From a virus, in IMG/VR virus record IMGVR_UViG_3300042305_000404, positions 1 to 34,081 of that record: a DNA stretch of 34,081 nt, one strand, 5' to 3'. A model generated the notes under the pieces. The model ran no database searches and was not told the DNA's origin. It worked only from the letters and a program-made list of their open reading frames with translations. Each line of letters opens with the position of its first letter. The first letter of the stretch is position 1. A program made the translations under genes and the position numbers. Positions 6,247-34,081 of the stretch are shown here, piece by piece.

Positions 6247-6434
6247 CACCGAAAGATAAAGCAGAAGAATTAGTTGATAAATTCAGTTTTAGTTGTCGAG
6301 AATGCGATAATATAAAACAATGTGCATTGATTGCAGTTGATGAAATTTTAAACCATCATTATCAAGAACAAGGATTGTACAGAATTGACAAATATTATTG
6401 GCAACAAGTTAAAAAGGAGATTGAAGAACTATGA
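6243..6434 (+). CDS. Hypothetical protein of Bacteroidota-phage type
   Basis: 63 residues with the pattern KAEELVDKF ... CxECDNIKQCALIAVDEIL, seen in small proteins of Bacteroidota phages. Three cysteines lie within 12 residues. The C-terminal helix ends in EIEEL. 4-nt overlaps on both sides. Function unknown. Confidence 0.75.
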   Translation: MTPKDKAEELVDKFSFSCRECDNIKQCALIAVDEILNHHYQEQGLYRIDKYYWQQVKKEIEEL

Positions 6435-6622
6435 CCTACTCGCAAAAACAAAAACACTTCATAAAGCACCGGGCGAAGGGCGACACGGAGATGCTGGTAA
6501 AACAACTGGCTGGCAAGGTTAGCCGCAAGACGATATTCGATGCGCTGAAAAATGACAGCAAGTATCTCCCTGCAAAGCATCAGTTGGTAATTGACACGGC
6601 ATTTGAGATTGTTGCAGAATAA
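6431..6622 (+). CDS. Small basic hypothetical protein
   Basis: 63 residues, Lys-rich, with a possible helix-turn-helix (VKQLAGKVSRKTIFDALKND, residues about 23-42), so it may bind DNA. AAGGAG stands 11 nt before the ATG. The TAA stop (6620-6622) is part of the attC-like hairpin that begins at 6619. Confidence 0.65.
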   Translation: MTYSQKQKHFIKHRAKGDTEMLVKQLAGKVSRKTIFDALKNDSKYLPAKHQLVIDTAFEIVAE

Positions 6623-6684
6623 CAGCCGTGCAGCCGCAGTTTCTACAAATTAACACACCCTGAATTGCGGTTGCACTATGTTAT
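6619..6684 (+). repeat. attC-like hairpin, copy 1
   Basis: Outer arms ATAACA (6619-6624) and TGTTAT (6679-6684), an unpaired 3/2-nt spacer, then a 14-bp inner stem (6628-6641 with 6663-6676, two G-T pairs) and a 21-nt variable loop. The arms carry AAC and GTT cores, and the left arm supplies the upstream gene's stop codon, as in integron cassettes. The second copy at 8993-9057 has the same arms and stem and a different loop. It may equally be an RNA hairpin. Confidence 0.55.
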
Positions 6685-6845
6685 ACATCACCCTCGTATA
6701 TTGGAACGCTGCAAACAATGTCAACTATTATCCCGTACCGCCCGAAGAAGTGGAACGGACAATCAAACACTACCAGCGCAAAGGGTACAAGTGTGCGATT
6801 TACACCCCCGAACTCATTGAACAAATAAAAAATTCTCAAAAATAA
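6678..6845 (+). CDS. Small hypothetical protein (55 aa) starting inside the hairpin
   Basis: The frame runs from ATG at 6678 to TAA at 6843-6845 and fills an otherwise empty gap. It is rich in Tyr and Pro (Tyr-Tyr-Pro-Val-Pro-Pro near residue 17) and then helical and charged (EEVERTIKHYQRKGYKCAIYTPELIEQI), a normal protein-like composition. Its start codon lies in the right arm of the hairpin (6619-6684), so folding of the mRNA could mask the start. Not recognised. Confidence 0.55.
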   Translation: MLYITLVYWNAANNVNYYPVPPEEVERTIKHYQRKGYKCAIYTPELIEQIKNSQK

Positions 6846-6876
6846 TTTGCAAGTTTAGTTTTTTACACTATCTTTG
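6846..6876 (+). promoter_or_regulatory. Early promoter before the annealing-protein operon
   Basis: TTTG at 6846-6849, a 19-nt spacer, then TATCTTTG at 6869-6876, both perfect to consensus. ATG at 6884, 7 nt after the box. It starts one base after the stop of the 55-aa gene and drives the recombination module. Confidence 0.8.
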
Positions 6877-6883
6877 TACCATT

Positions 6884-7093
6884 ATGAATGACATTAAAAC
6901 AACAAAAAGCCGCAGCGTTAGCGTAAAATTCGAGCATGAAGACATCATCTACTTTGTTGATTGGGCTGATTATGACGACACTATTTACATCATAAATCAG
7001 TATGGCGAAGAAAGGGGGGTTTTGTCAATTCCATTTGAATTGCTGCCAACTTTACAACAAGTATTTAAAAGCATAATAGAAGAAAAACTATGA
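6884..7093 (+). CDS. Hypothetical protein
   Basis: 69 residues, beta-rich and acidic (EHEDIIYFVDWADYDDTIYIINQY), with an amphipathic C-terminal helix. Its stop overlaps the start of the Rad52-like gene by 4 nt. Not recognised; co-expression suggests an accessory of the annealing protein (inference). Confidence 0.65.
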   Translation: MNDIKTTKSRSVSVKFEHEDIIYFVDWADYDDTIYIINQYGEERGVLSIPFELLPTLQQVFKSIIEEKL

Positions 7094-7554
7094 ACGACAT
7101 ACTAAAAAAACCAATCACCGCCTCTGAAATCGAATGGCGTGTGCAGCAACAAACAAGCACGGGCAAACTCATTGTCGTGCCTTACATCACCAACAGATGC
7201 GTAATGGAACGATTTGACGAAGCCTTTGGGGCGAGTAACTGGACATCGGAGTTCCGTGAAATCGCCAATGGCTTTATTTGCCGCTTGACCGTTTATTTGG
7301 ATGGCCAAACAATCACTCGTGAAGATGGTGCATCAAAGACCAATATCGAACCTGAGAAGGGCGGCATATCCGATGCCATGAAACGGGCAGCCGTTCAATT
7401 TGGTTTAGGGCGTTGCCTATACGCTTACCCCCGTGTAATGATTGAAACGGACGGCAAGTTTATTCCTGATTGGGCGTATGCTAAACTTGACAAGTTAGTG
7501 GAGTGGGTGAACGCTGGGAATTATAAAGAAATAATAATAATACCAAACAAATAA
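7090..7554 (+). CDS. Rad52/Rad22-family single-strand annealing protein
   Basis: 154 residues. The central block (FDEAFGASNWTSEF ... EDGASKTNIEPEKGGISDAMKRAAVQFGLGRCLY) matches the phage Rad52/22 annealing family: an ssDNA-binding beta hairpin region followed by the conserved helix DAxKRAAxxFGxG. Such proteins anneal complementary strands in phage recombination. It is full length for the short phage type. The downstream gene (7557) is a common companion, but no exonuclease partner is evident. Confidence 0.88.
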   Translation: MNDILKKPITASEIEWRVQQQTSTGKLIVVPYITNRCVMERFDEAFGASNWTSEFREIANGFICRLTVYLDGQTITREDGASKTNIEPEKGGISDAMKRAAVQFGLGRCLYAYPRVMIETDGKFIPDWAYAKLDKLVEWVNAGNYKEIIIIPNK

Positions 7555-7556
7555 CT

Positions 7557-7961
7557 ATGATACAACCTGACATTACCGACATGATTTTCGCAGTTGAGGA
7601 AGGCAACGCCAACCCACTTGAAATCTATTGCGCCCTTCACAAATTAGAGGCGCAGGTCAAAGCAGCCAAAGAGCAAATCAAATCACTTGCCATTGATGAA
7701 GCCAGTAAGCACGGCAAGACATTCACCTTTATGGGTTTTGAAATTCAGCAGAAGGCACTGCCCGGACGCTGGACTTTTGACCACATTGACGATTGGAATG
7801 CTGCCAAGTTCAAGATGAAAAACATCGAAGACCTTGCAAAGTGGGCTTACAAGTCGCATGAAAAGGGAGTGCAACCCATTACCGATGACGGTGAAGTGAT
7901 TACCCCTGCCAACTATACGCCCGGTGGCGACACCATAGCACTGAGGGAGGTATCGGAATGA
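7557..7961 (+). CDS. Phage recombination-module companion protein
   Basis: 134 residues. N-terminal coiled-coil helix (LEIYCALHKLEAQVKAAKEQIKSLAIDEASKHG), then a beta segment with FTFMGFEIQQKALPGRWTFD, of a type often encoded next to annealing proteins in Bacteroidota phages. No catalytic motif is visible. It starts 2 nt after the Rad52-like stop and overlaps the next small gene by 4 nt. Function unknown. Confidence 0.7.
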   Translation: MIQPDITDMIFAVEEGNANPLEIYCALHKLEAQVKAAKEQIKSLAIDEASKHGKTFTFMGFEIQQKALPGRWTFDHIDDWNAAKFKMKNIEDLAKWAYKSHEKGVQPITDDGEVITPANYTPGGDTIALREVSE

Positions 7962-8098
7962 TATTTATTTTTGTATATGCATCATGTGTGATAATGGGTA
8001 TGTATTTGTTAAGTTTTAATCAATTTGAAGCCGCTATGGTTATATTTTGTTCGATAATTATTGGATTACTTGCAAGTAAAAAGGAGGCTTCTAAATGA
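7958..8098 (+). CDS. Small two-helix membrane protein (46 aa)
   Basis: Two hydrophobic stretches (residues about 2-19 and 25-39) joined by a short polar turn, ending in a Lys/Ser-rich tail: a two-pass inner-membrane protein by appearance. 4-nt overlaps with both neighbours support the frame. A strong AAGGAGG near its end serves the next gene. Confidence 0.6.
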   Translation: MIFIFVYASCVIMGMYLLSFNQFEAAMVIFCSIIIGLLASKKEASK

Positions 8099-8310
8099 CA
8101 CCCGTTCAATTAGTCATCCAAGACTTGCACAAAGCAGGGTGGCCAATATTAAGAGCCGAGGCGATTAAGTGGATGATGTATGAAGAAAGCCACATCAAAC
8201 AAGCCTATTATGCCGGGCGCGAAGACCTTGACTGCAAACGCAACGATATGGCCGAGGCTTACGACGATGCGGCAGATTATTATGTTCAAAATTACGGAGG
8301 TGCAAAATGA
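8095..8310 (+). CDS. Hypothetical protein
   Basis: 71 residues, helical and acidic, with paired tyrosines (QAYYAG, ADYYVQNYGG). It has an unusually clear Shine-Dalgarno (AAGGAGG, about 7 nt before the ATG), rare in Bacteroidota. Ends in Gly-Gly-Ala-Lys with the same GGTGCAAAATGA junction as the next gene, so these two gene ends may derive from one another. Not recognised. Confidence 0.7.
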   Translation: MTPVQLVIQDLHKAGWPILRAEAIKWMMYEESHIKQAYYAGREDLDCKRNDMAEAYDDAADYYVQNYGGAK

Positions 8311-8507
8311 AACAAACAGCAGTAGAGTGGTTATTCAGCCAATTACCTGACCATTTGCGGTTAAGTGAAGATGGTTTTGATACTTTGCAACAAGCCAAAA
8401 CAATGGAAGCCGAGCAAAAAAAAGAAGCCTACAACGAAGGAATGATACAAGGTATTAAATTTGCCGTTAACGAGGAATGGGGCGAAGAAGAAGGGGGTGC
8501 AAAATGA
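8307..8507 (+). CDS. QTAVEWL-family hypothetical protein, early paralogue
   Basis: 66 residues beginning MKQTAVEWLFSQL, with a second block QAKTMEAEQKKEAYNEG. The leftward gene at 30726-30956 starts MKRQTAVEWLVKEL and has QAKEMERQQ, so the genome carries two paralogues in opposite modules. The family is widespread in Bacteroidota phages; function unknown. GGAGGTG precedes the start and overlaps are 4 nt on both sides. Confidence 0.75.
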   Translation: MKQTAVEWLFSQLPDHLRLSEDGFDTLQQAKTMEAEQKKEAYNEGMIQGIKFAVNEEWGEEEGGAK

Positions 8508-8701
8508 TTATCATTGCCGGGGTGCTTACTTACCTGCTTTATTGGCTCGTTATCCCCACCAAAACGATTGACATACCCGAAGCCACACCTTACACTTTTG
8601 AACGCGACAAAGCGGTTGAAAATGCGAATGAAACCTTTAACGCTTGGGCAGAGTTGCGGAGGCAAATTGACATCGAAAAGAAGGAGGGGAGGTTAGGCTA
8701 A
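8504..8701 (+). CDS. Small single-pass membrane protein (65 aa)
   Basis: An N-terminal hydrophobic segment (residues about 2-18) is followed by a charged helical tail (KAVENANETFNAWAELRRQIDIEKKEG). The ATG at 8504 is chosen because it gives the operon's usual ATGA overlap; an in-frame start at 8477 would add nine Arg-rich residues within the previous gene. Likely anchored in the inner membrane with the tail in one compartment. Function unknown. Confidence 0.65.
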   Translation: MIIIAGVLTYLLYWLVIPTKTIDIPEATPYTFERDKAVENANETFNAWAELRRQIDIEKKEGRLG

Positions 8702-8708
8702 CGGTAAA

Positions 8709-8727
8709 CGGCTTTGCGAAGAAGCCG
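8709..8727 (+). other. Short hairpin in the 8702-8771 gap
   Basis: CGGCTT (8709-8714) pairs with AAGCCG (8722-8727) over a 7-nt loop, 8 nt after the stop of the membrane-protein gene. No T-run follows, so it is a weak or non-terminating hairpin; it could stabilise the 3' end of the upstream mRNA. Confidence 0.35.
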
Positions 8728-8771
8728 ATTTTGAAAACAAATGTTCAATTAACAACTAAAGTAAAATAAAA

Positions 8772-8996
8772 ATGAAAAGATTAAAATTAGCACTAAAGCG
8801 TCTTTTTTGCAAAACCGATGTTAGCGGTAGTTGTGAATCACCACAAGACAACGGAGATTTTGTTCAGCTTGTTTGGATGATTGAGGAACTACGAAGAAGA
8901 GAAGGTGGTTGCACAATGAATGAACTTGTTGCAGAAGCCAAGCGGAACTTTAAAGGTATTGAACAGATTAAACACCGTACAATCAATTACCGATAA
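8772..8996 (+). CDS. Small hypothetical protein
   Basis: 74 residues: basic N-terminus (MKRLKLALKRLF), a Cys/Ser linker, then helical (VQLVWMIEELRRREGG, MNELVAEAKRNFKG). Preceded by an A-rich leader (TAAAGTAAAATAAAA) typical of Bacteroidota translation starts. Its TAA stop (8994-8996) lies in the left arm of the second attC-like hairpin. An internal ATG at Met48 could give a shorter product. Not recognised. Confidence 0.55.
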   Translation: MKRLKLALKRLFCKTDVSGSCESPQDNGDFVQLVWMIEELRRREGGCTMNELVAEAKRNFKGIEQIKHRTINYR

Positions 8997-9057
8997 CAGC
9001 CGTGCAGCCGCAGTTGACACCTTGCATTCACGCCTAATTGCGGTTGCACATTGTTAG
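8993..9057 (+). repeat. attC-like hairpin, copy 2
   Basis: Outer arms ATAACA (8993-8998) and TGTTAG (9052-9057), and the same 14-bp inner stem as copy 1 (9002-9015 with 9036-9049), with a different 20-nt loop (9016-9035). The left 23 nt and the 14-nt right stem strand are identical to copy 1. Between the GTT cores of the two copies lies a 2.37-kb segment holding the annealing module. Confidence 0.55.
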
Positions 9058-9143: not shown

Positions 9144-9171
9144 ATGGGGGCAATCGTCCCCATTTTTTTTT
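9144..9171 (+). terminator. Intrinsic terminator of the annealing-module operon
   Basis: ATGGGG (9144-9149) and CCCCAT (9158-9163) form a GC-rich stem over an 8-nt loop, followed by an unbroken T-run to 9171. It separates the operon ending at 8996 from the metallophosphoesterase gene. Confidence 0.85.
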
Positions 9172-9188: not shown

Positions 9189-10190
9189 ATGAACAAAACA
9201 CAACTTGTCGAAAGTTACATCCGCAAATACTGCGACAACAACAACCAATTAACCATCCCAAAACAAACCCTGAGCCGCCTTATTTACAACGAAAACCACG
9301 GGCTTTTTAGCGGAATTGATGCGGTGCGAAACATTGTGCGCTCATTAACCGGGTCAAACAAAACAAACACCAAGGCATTGCCCGGATTTTCTCAACCCAG
9401 CACAATCGAGGACGGCCTCCGAAAGTATAAGCTATTCACGAAACTTCCCGAACCAAAAGAAAAAATACTTAAACCCGGATGCTGGCTGGTTATGTCCGAT
9501 ATTCACTTTCCTGAGCATGACCCGACCGCGATTGCTGCCTCGTTAAACTTCGCCAAAAATGCAAGGGTTGACGGGATTGTTTTGAATGGCGACATAATCG
9601 ATATGTACGAGGTGAGCCGATTTATTAAAGAGGTCGGTCGGCCAAGTATCAAAACCGAACTTGAAATGACCCGGTCTTTTTTTCAGTTATTGCGTGATGA
9701 ATTTGGCGACATCGCGATAGTTTACAAATTTGGCAATCACGAAGAACGAATGCGGAACTACCTGCTCACAAACGCCCGTGCCATTGCTGAATTGGACGGC
9801 ATAGGACTTGAAGACCAGTTGCAACTCAAAAAGTTCGGTATTGATGTGGTTTACCGGGAAAGAATAAGAGCCGGGAAGTTAGATATTTTGCACGGCCATG
9901 AGTTGCAGAAGGGGATTTCTGCTCCGGTTAACCCAGCAAGAGGGGCGTTTTTAAGGGCGAAATCTTCACTCTTAATAGGACACCACCATCAAACTTCTAC
10001 ACACCACGAAAACAACCTTAAACGCGACCAGATTGTATGTTATTCCATAGGCTGCCATTGTACCCTTACCCCGGAATATAACCCTTTCGGCTATACCCGG
10101 CAAAATCACGGGGGCGCAATCGTGGAAATTCTCAAAGGTGGTAATTTCAAGGTCAATAACTATCGCATAATTGACGGCAAATGCTATTAA
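9189..10190 (+). CDS. Calcineurin-like metallophosphoesterase with N-terminal extension
   Basis: 333 residues. The five metallophosphoesterase motifs are present: Asp104-x-His106, Gly-Asp135, Gly-Asn183-His184-Glu, His235-Gly-His237 and Gly-His265-His. These form the two-metal site. The first about 100 residues are helical and partly helix-turn-helix-like (TIPKQTLSRLIYNENHGLFSG) and may bind nucleic acid. Phage members include phosphatases and nucleases of the Mre11/SbcD superfamily; the substrate is not readable. No SbcC-like partner is present. It has its own terminator-flanked promoter element. Confidence 0.85.
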   Translation: MNKTQLVESYIRKYCDNNNQLTIPKQTLSRLIYNENHGLFSGIDAVRNIVRSLTGSNKTNTKALPGFSQPSTIEDGLRKYKLFTKLPEPKEKILKPGCWLVMSDIHFPEHDPTAIAASLNFAKNARVDGIVLNGDIIDMYEVSRFIKEVGRPSIKTELEMTRSFFQLLRDEFGDIAIVYKFGNHEERMRNYLLTNARAIAELDGIGLEDQLQLKKFGIDVVYRERIRAGKLDILHGHELQKGISAPVNPARGAFLRAKSSLLIGHHHQTSTHHENNLKRDQIVCYSIGCHCTLTPEYNPFGYTRQNHGGAIVEILKGGNFKVNNYRIIDGKCY

Positions 10191-33499: not shown

Positions 33500-34016
33500 A
33501 TTGCCTCCTGATTTCGTCTTTCATTGCCTGTATTATTTTTTGTATTTCTCTAAAATTGATTTTGCTATCACGGGCGACCTGCTTAATTGAACGGACTTTT
33601 GCGTACTGCTCCCAAAGAACCCCCACATACCAATCACTCCGGTCATGGTCATGTGCCACACGGGAATACATATCGTTTGCGGTGTTGAGTGCGCCCAGTT
33701 GCCTCTGATATTCGTCTTCGTTGTACTCGTCATCTTCGCTTTCTATTTCCTCGGGCAGGGTTTCTGAGGGCTTACGAAAGTCCCGGTAAAATCTTTGCTT
33801 TCCGTTGCCGTGATACAGCCGAACCAAAATGCGGATAGCCCACCATTTAAGAAACCCGTCTGCATGAATTTTGCAGATTTCTTCATCCGACTTGGAACAA
33901 ATGACCACCCAAAATTCCTGATAAAGGTCGTCGGCAAGGTCGCCACCGATGTTTTGGCAGGCTTCCCGTAACCAACTGGACCGGGCAAGGTCGTTAAGAA
34001 TGTCATCCCTTGTCAA
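33480..34016 (-). CDS. Sigma-70-like transcription factor
   Basis: 178 residues, TTG start at 34016 (an in-frame stop lies two codons upstream). The region DLADDLYQEFWVVICSKSDEEICKIHADGFLKWWAIRILVRLY (about 26-70) matches sigma region 2 (DxAEDLxQExF ... FxxWLxxIA). An acidic linker follows (PEEIESEDDEYNEDE), then a C-terminal helix-turn-helix (SIKQVARDSKINFREIQKIIQAMKDEI) like region 4. It lies early in the leftward late set and could direct host RNA polymerase to the GGTACATTT-type promoters (inference). The sigma homology is weak; a sigma-like DNA-packaging regulator is the alternative. Confidence 0.6.
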   Translation of the reverse strand: MTRDDILNDLARSSWLREACQNIGGDLADDLYQEFWVVICSKSDEEICKIHADGFLKWWAIRILVRLYHGNGKQRFYRDFRKPSETLPEEIESEDDEYNEDEYQRQLGALNTANDMYSRVAHDHDRSDWYVGVLWEQYAKVRSIKQVARDSKINFREIQKIIQAMKDEIRRQYDRHNK

Positions 34017-34081
34017 GTTTTAATTGGTGTCGCTGTTGCAGGTATTCAAGCCATTGTTTGTTATCCCCGTACTTCGTATGA
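33590..34081. repeat. Right copy of 492-bp imperfect terminal repeat
   Basis: Same sequence as 1-492 with about 32 substitutions and no indels. Here it carries the complete sigma-like gene's 5' part and the last 26 codons of the HNH gene. The genome closes if one copy is removed, giving 33,589 bp. Confidence 0.93.
34003..34081 (-). CDS. HNH endonuclease, 3' fragment (contig edge)
   Basis: The C-terminal about 26 codons of the HNH gene, identical to 414-492. The fragment is cut by the window end, not degraded. Confidence 0.85.
   Translation of the reverse strand, partial: HTKYGDNKQWLEYLQQRHQLKLDKG

Follow-up and report, generated by a model that had tools for sequence, protein, structure and literature searches.

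What do two near-identical, attC-like hairpins mark out in the genome of a tailed phage: the ends of a mobile unit, or sites at which mobile units arrive? The hairpins, hp1 and hp2, are spaced 2374 bp apart in a 34-kb virus record from IMG/VR (IMGVR_UViG_3300042305_000404, positions 1 to 34,081; the whole of this stretch is referred to here as the window), whose gene content is typical of a Bacteroidota tailed phage and includes a primase/helicase, a Rad52/Erf annealing protein and a metallophosphoesterase. The initial annotation of this locus suggested that the hairpins bracket a large captured cassette that carries the Rad52-like genes and recombines between the GTT cores of the two sites. 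Our results support a different model, to which we assign a probability of roughly 80%. Judged from sequence comparison, hp1 and hp2 would be attC-type landing sites with fixed places in the early operon of one lineage of Bacteroidota phages, and on whose 5′ side circular cassettes are inserted, swapped or lost.

Structure and conservation of the hairpins

Both hairpins lie on the + strand, hp1 at 6620-6683 and hp2 at 8994-9056, and they share exact repeat arms around different loops: the 5′ arm TAACAGCCGTGCAGCCGCAGTT begins at 6620 and 8994, and the 3′ arm AATTGCGGTTGCAC at 6663 and 9036. A 22-mer searched with up to three mismatches occurs at these two positions only in the window and in 0 of 100 shuffles. 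The + strand fold of hp1 beats that of every shuffle (z = −3.8), and the fold of hp2 is weaker (z = −1.9). The stems are strongly conserved in an alignment of 64 columns from 21 relatives, 18 of them distinct. Across the distinct relatives, 99.1% of pairs are kept, compensatory changes at four pairs account for 18 cells compared with 5.2 in shuffles, and G-U is nearly invariant at two pair positions. The hairpin model R2 scores hp1 at 80.6 bits (this copy being part of the model) and hp2 at 70 bits. Thus, the two attC-like hairpins described in the initial annotation are real features of the sequence, with the architecture of attC sites: AAC/GTT boxes, an unpaired spacer, an inner stem, a variable loop and a conserved structure. 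It was also correct that each begins with the stop codon of the preceding gene, as the TAA of each TAAC ends an open reading frame (ORF; 6431-6622 and 8772-8996, respectively).

Empty and occupied sites in relatives

Relatives of the window were located using its metallophosphoesterase gene as an anchor, and among them the sequence upstream of each hairpin varies, and that downstream stays constant. The flank GCAGAATAAC joins hp1 directly in the window and in L006, L009 and L013, where the site is empty, and the same flank is followed in L003 and in L005/L008 by two different units lying between TAAC and hp1. Similarly, hp2 is empty in L010/L015, and the window and L005 hold different units there. 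A second phage clade repeats the pattern, with a common flank and different cassettes in L095/L096, L025/L032 and L024/L025. The inserted units consist of an attC and one gene, positioned exactly at the 5′ TAAC of hp1 or hp2 in the layout TAA|C-[attC]-GTTA-gene-TAA|C-[hairpin]. Their ends are complementary: in 18 cassettes, the stretch that follows GTTA and the one leading up to the closing TAAC are reverse-complementary at 91 of the 108 positions compared, whereas 20,000 shuffles gave a mean of 44 and a maximum of 68. Such complementarity is consistent with the requirement for a circle closed at a single site.

The window itself contains one of these units, an inserted cassette on the + strand at 8702-8996 (295 bp, assuming a cut at TAA|C) that occupies the 5′ side of hp2. 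Its attC (8699-8823, + strand) is a third, longer site that the initial annotation overlooked, and it belongs to the same family as sites in Bacteroidota chromosomal arrays: R1, a covariance model built from 30 bacterial sites only, one site per locus, matches 8692-8831 with 93.2 bits (E = 4.2e-20). L015 lacks the cassette, and its flanks align with the window up to TAAC on both sides. The cassette ORF (8772-8996, + strand, 74 amino acids) starts within the attC loop and has its stop codon in the hp2 TAAC, and its product has no match to a Pfam family. The unit therefore shares with integron gene cassettes a match to bacterial attC sites, precise presence or absence at the core box and complementary ends. 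Its gene does not run towards its attC in the usual order gene-TAAC-attC, a feature that is typical of such cassettes and not absolute.

Capture of a cassette by a phage, as the initial annotation proposed, is therefore borne out, although the captured unit is the 295 bp at about 8702-8996 and not the 2.37-kb Rad52 module. That the entire module between the GTT cores is a single large integron cassette would fit the near-identical hairpins in the same orientation on both sides and the stop codon before each, but we consider this extremely improbable. The module is retained in L015, which has no hp1, in L016, which has no hp2, and in L017, which has neither, and the Rad52/Erf-type gene (7090-7554, + strand; PF04098, E = 7.5e-18; phrog_1097, E = 1.4e-44) is kept in relatives regardless of which hairpins they carry, as backbone rather than cargo. 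The ends of the module are unpaired (GTTA-TACATC, GTTATACATC, versus rc TCGGTA), and it has many genes and its own promoter-like site, a putative Bacteroidota-type TTTG-N19-TATCTTTG read by eye at 6846-6876 on the + strand. The insertions fall at the 5′ TAAC of each hairpin rather than between GTT cores. Relatives in which cargo is changed or absent at one hairpin do exist, as anticipated, but the changing cargo lies upstream of each hairpin rather than between the two, and the module stays. From these comparisons, the 2.37-kb block reads as ordinary, fixed phage DNA.

Two further observations concern the range of such sites. At the hp2 position of L014 (6190-6390), a short gene is flanked by GCTAA and GCCTACAACC; attC and hairpin are both absent there, and the gene is perhaps a fixed former cassette. 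In two other phages, L139 and L142, cassettes of the same attC family abut a different acceptor (TAACTCTCTAATATATGCACC, TAACTCGCTGCTACCCGCT); landing sites may thus differ among phage lineages.

A related attC family in Bacteroidota

A pattern derived from the phage sites matched at least 117 stretches in a scan of bacterial and archaeal genomes, and among the matches listed, the verified site carriers are nearly all Bacteroidota. The bacterial sites are about 126 bp long and arranged in arrays, in which, for most neighbouring pairs, both ends of the one cassette match at 5/5 positions. Because the pattern used to pick the sites for R1 requires GAAG in their 5′ arm, conservation of this arm is partly due to selection; the end-pairing and orientation counts are free of it. 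R1 finds sites in most cassette-carrying relatives, and it weakly matches the hairpins of L020 (23.2 bits) and L025 (21.5 bits) on the same strand. When R2 was run against bacterial loci, its best matches included array attCs, also on the same strand (27.6 and 25.5 bits in L231; 22.0 bits in L240). The CCGC form of the hairpin pattern has 0 matches in bacterial genomes, the GGCGC form falling outside the pattern. We take the landing hairpin to be a short, divergent attC that the phage has retained.

Array loci (L287-L297, L157, L235 and others) were found in Cecembia, Pedobacter, Algoriphagus and Flavobacterium, with the integrase co-directional with the cassettes. We considered and dropped a model in which the polarity of the arrays is reversed and attI lies at the 3′ end, since the directions of the bacterial ORFs make the opposite strand canonical and the integrase is merely co-directional. 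In 11 contigs, the array adjoins an integron-like tyrosine recombinase. A conserved TAACTWGTATATA motif, probably attI, often lies directly next to the final cassette; where this is clearest, about 110 bp separate the motif from the integrase gene. The best model for this enzyme is NF040815 (208-220 bits; cut-off 220), and it scores 194-209 bits against the integron-integrase model (cut-off 265); TIGR02249 matches at about 2-178 and 238-315 only, and the cut-off is exceeded in 0 of 28 genomes. An additional domain near patch III is the defining feature of IntI integrases (PMC9668308). This IntI-specific insert is missing from the array enzyme, which has 21 residues there compared with 63 in IntI4.

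Three loci stand apart. In L149 (Bacteroidetes metagenome-assembled genome 338R), the loop and start codon of a site at about 4118 are nearly identical to those of the phage site of L025, and L149 is probably a phage contig binned with a bacterial genome. Sites of the Bacteroidota type also occur in a Deltaproteobacteria bin (L170) and a Sphingomonadales bin (L178), through contamination or transfer.

Orientation, start codons and cargo of phage cassettes

The phage cassettes differ from those of the bacterial arrays in the direction of their genes. The gene lies on the same strand as the attC + strand in 17 of the 18 phage cassettes at hairpins but in only 1 of 47 bacterial cassettes (p = 1.7e-13), the remaining 46 having it on the opposite strand. 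Other phages with sites of this attC family mostly show the phage-type direction. In addition, at 19 of 33 phage sites versus 16 of 126 bacterial sites (p = 3e-7), the reading frame from an ATG in the loop continues without a stop across the 3′ arm and the joint to the gene. Together, the reversed orientation and the loop ATG suggest a cassette built for reading together with the operon of the phage, the attC serving as a 5′ leader. Phage cargo includes an MT-A70 methylase (L003), N6/N4 methylases (L005, L080), Mom (L094), YopX (L096) and many small proteins of no assigned family. Cargo of known family is mostly concerned with DNA modification, and plausibly counters host restriction.

Backbone genes around the hairpins

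The ORF that ends in hp1 (6431-6622, + strand) forms the conserved flank upstream of hp1 in relatives. The next ORF (6678-6845, + strand, 55 amino acids) has its start codon within the 3′ arm of hp1 and is conserved in relatives, even in L015, which lacks hp1. Downstream of hp2, a terminator-like hairpin read by eye (ATGGGG..CCCCAT followed by a T run; 9144-9171, + strand) marks the end of the operon and precedes the backbone metallophosphoesterase gene (9189-10190, + strand; phrog_221, E = 2.2e-34).

This setting raises the question of whether the hairpins are instead RNA elements of the phage operon, acting in termination, processing or translation control, beside which cassettes insert by chance. 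The better fold of the + strand, which is that of the transcript, the conserved G-U pairs, the start codon covered by hp1 and the terminator-like hairpin after hp2 are all what such elements would show. We nevertheless regard this explanation as very unlikely. No Rfam family comes close to its gathering score for the hairpins, the TAACA/TGTTA arms that close them show no variation, as is the case in attC, and the same type of hairpin is found in differing contexts. Chance insertion would also sit poorly with joints exactly at TAAC and with the array attCs among the best bacterial matches of R2.

Among the reference phages searched, none is closely related over this region of the window and none carries a complete hp hairpin. 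At the ends of the record, 1-492 and 33590-34081 form a 493-bp direct repeat with 93.7% identity, as a result of which an ORF in the repeat occurs twice; the imperfect terminal repeat is possibly a strain-variant wrap-around in assembly.

Discussion

Our results suggest a mechanism in which a circular cassette, comprising one gene and its own attC, would enter 5′ of a hairpin, at its TAAC, to yield the product flank-TAA|C-[attC-GTTA-gene-TAA]|C-hairpin, from which it could later be swapped or lost. The + strand would fold and be cut at TAA|C, presumably by the integron integrase of the host, and the reversed gene would be read along with the early operon of the phage, in many cases from a start inside the attC loop. 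That the + strand recombines with a cut at TAA|C is probable because, in the hairpins and the family attCs alike, this strand forms G-T pairs at positions that are A-C mismatches in its complement. We infer that the + strand is the counterpart of the bottom strand in classical attC sites, and a cut at TAA|C fits the position of all the observed insertions.

Several observations weigh against this model. R1, the bacterial-only model, gives neither hp1 nor hp2 a score (E above 10), and the ends of the window cassette pair at 5/6 positions, with the mismatch at the first base. Sites that lack a hairpin occur in the same phage lineage, at hp2 in L016, L089 and L017 and at hp1 in L015, and the sequence following hp2 mirrors that of the upstream flank in both L015 and the window, so that the model does not account for how a landing hairpin arises. 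The relatives are metagenome contigs. Some of this would suit a model in which the cassettes are relics that were captured once by an integrase in a bacterial genome and are now moved among phages solely by homologous recombination through Rad52-type annealing, the hairpins being conserved linkers. The window encodes an annealing protein, a search of it for tyrosine recombinases (PF00589) found no match, so that it lacks the integrase of a complete integron, and hp1 and hp2 do not match the bacterial model R1. We consider this model improbable. The cassettes share just TAAC with the hairpin at the joint, which is insufficient for homologous exchange, yet every joint is there. Moreover, the ends of each cassette still pair, and the stems of the hairpins covary, which a linker would not need. 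We therefore continue to favor hp1 and hp2 as landing sites for cassettes.

The arrangement resembles known systems in part. Compared with classical integrons (IntI, attI, attC), it has the same structure-specific hairpin site with AAC/GTT boxes, an unpaired spacer and a variable loop, the pairing of cassette ends, and joints that fit G|TT / AA|C. It differs in that no bulged extrahelical bases were seen, G-T/A-C positions being found instead, in that the NNN after GTTA is not purine-biased, and in the array integrase without the IntI-specific insert. Bacteroidota chromosomal arrays (for example, Cecembia rubra L289 and Pedobacter glucosidilyticus L290) share the R1 attC family, the GTTANNN..N′N′N′TAAC end pairing and single cassettes with their own attC, but their genes lie on the strand opposite to the attC, an integrase and an attI-like site adjoin, and a landing hairpin of the hp type is not clearly seen. 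Clusters of attC sites lacking an integrase (CALINs), with methyltransferases, have been described in virulent phages such as Polaribacter phage P12002L, and phage attCs recombine with IntI1 (Qi et al. 2023, PMC9892861). These CALINs likewise place attC sites and DNA methyltransferase cargo in a lytic Bacteroidota phage without an integrase. R1 matches the P12002L sites at 24 and 14.6 bits, and the methylase gene after the 14.6-bit site reads in the phage-type direction. Unlike the CALINs, the lineage of the window has short hairpins dedicated to landing, each at a set place in the backbone, along with sites demonstrated both empty and occupied and a systematic reversal of gene relative to attC.

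Thus, attC sites in phages are already known; what is new is the presence of fixed landing hairpins with turnover, reversed cassettes whose start codon lies in the loop, and a connection to arrays in Bacteroidota that have an integrase without the IntI domain. A literature search, mainly of open-access papers, for such arrays or phage landing sites returned just general integron papers and PMC9892861, and one survey reported no more than one complete integron for Bacteroidetes proper (PMC9024848). It is possible, and we suggest only tentatively, that these features together represent a distinct form of cassette exchange in Bacteroidota phages, with reversed genes, loop start codons, dedicated landing hairpins, a widespread class of host integron without the IntI domain, and strand choice by G-T/A-C pairs rather than extrahelical bases.

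In summary, our findings point to a common integron-like platform in Bacteroidota, whose sites measure about 126 bp, whose boundary is attI-like and whose integrase has no IntI domain; searches requiring that domain would miss it. They also provide testable sequences for cassette docking. If our model is correct, lytic phages maintain docking sites for integron-type cassettes and trade anti-restriction genes via the gene-capture machinery of their hosts.

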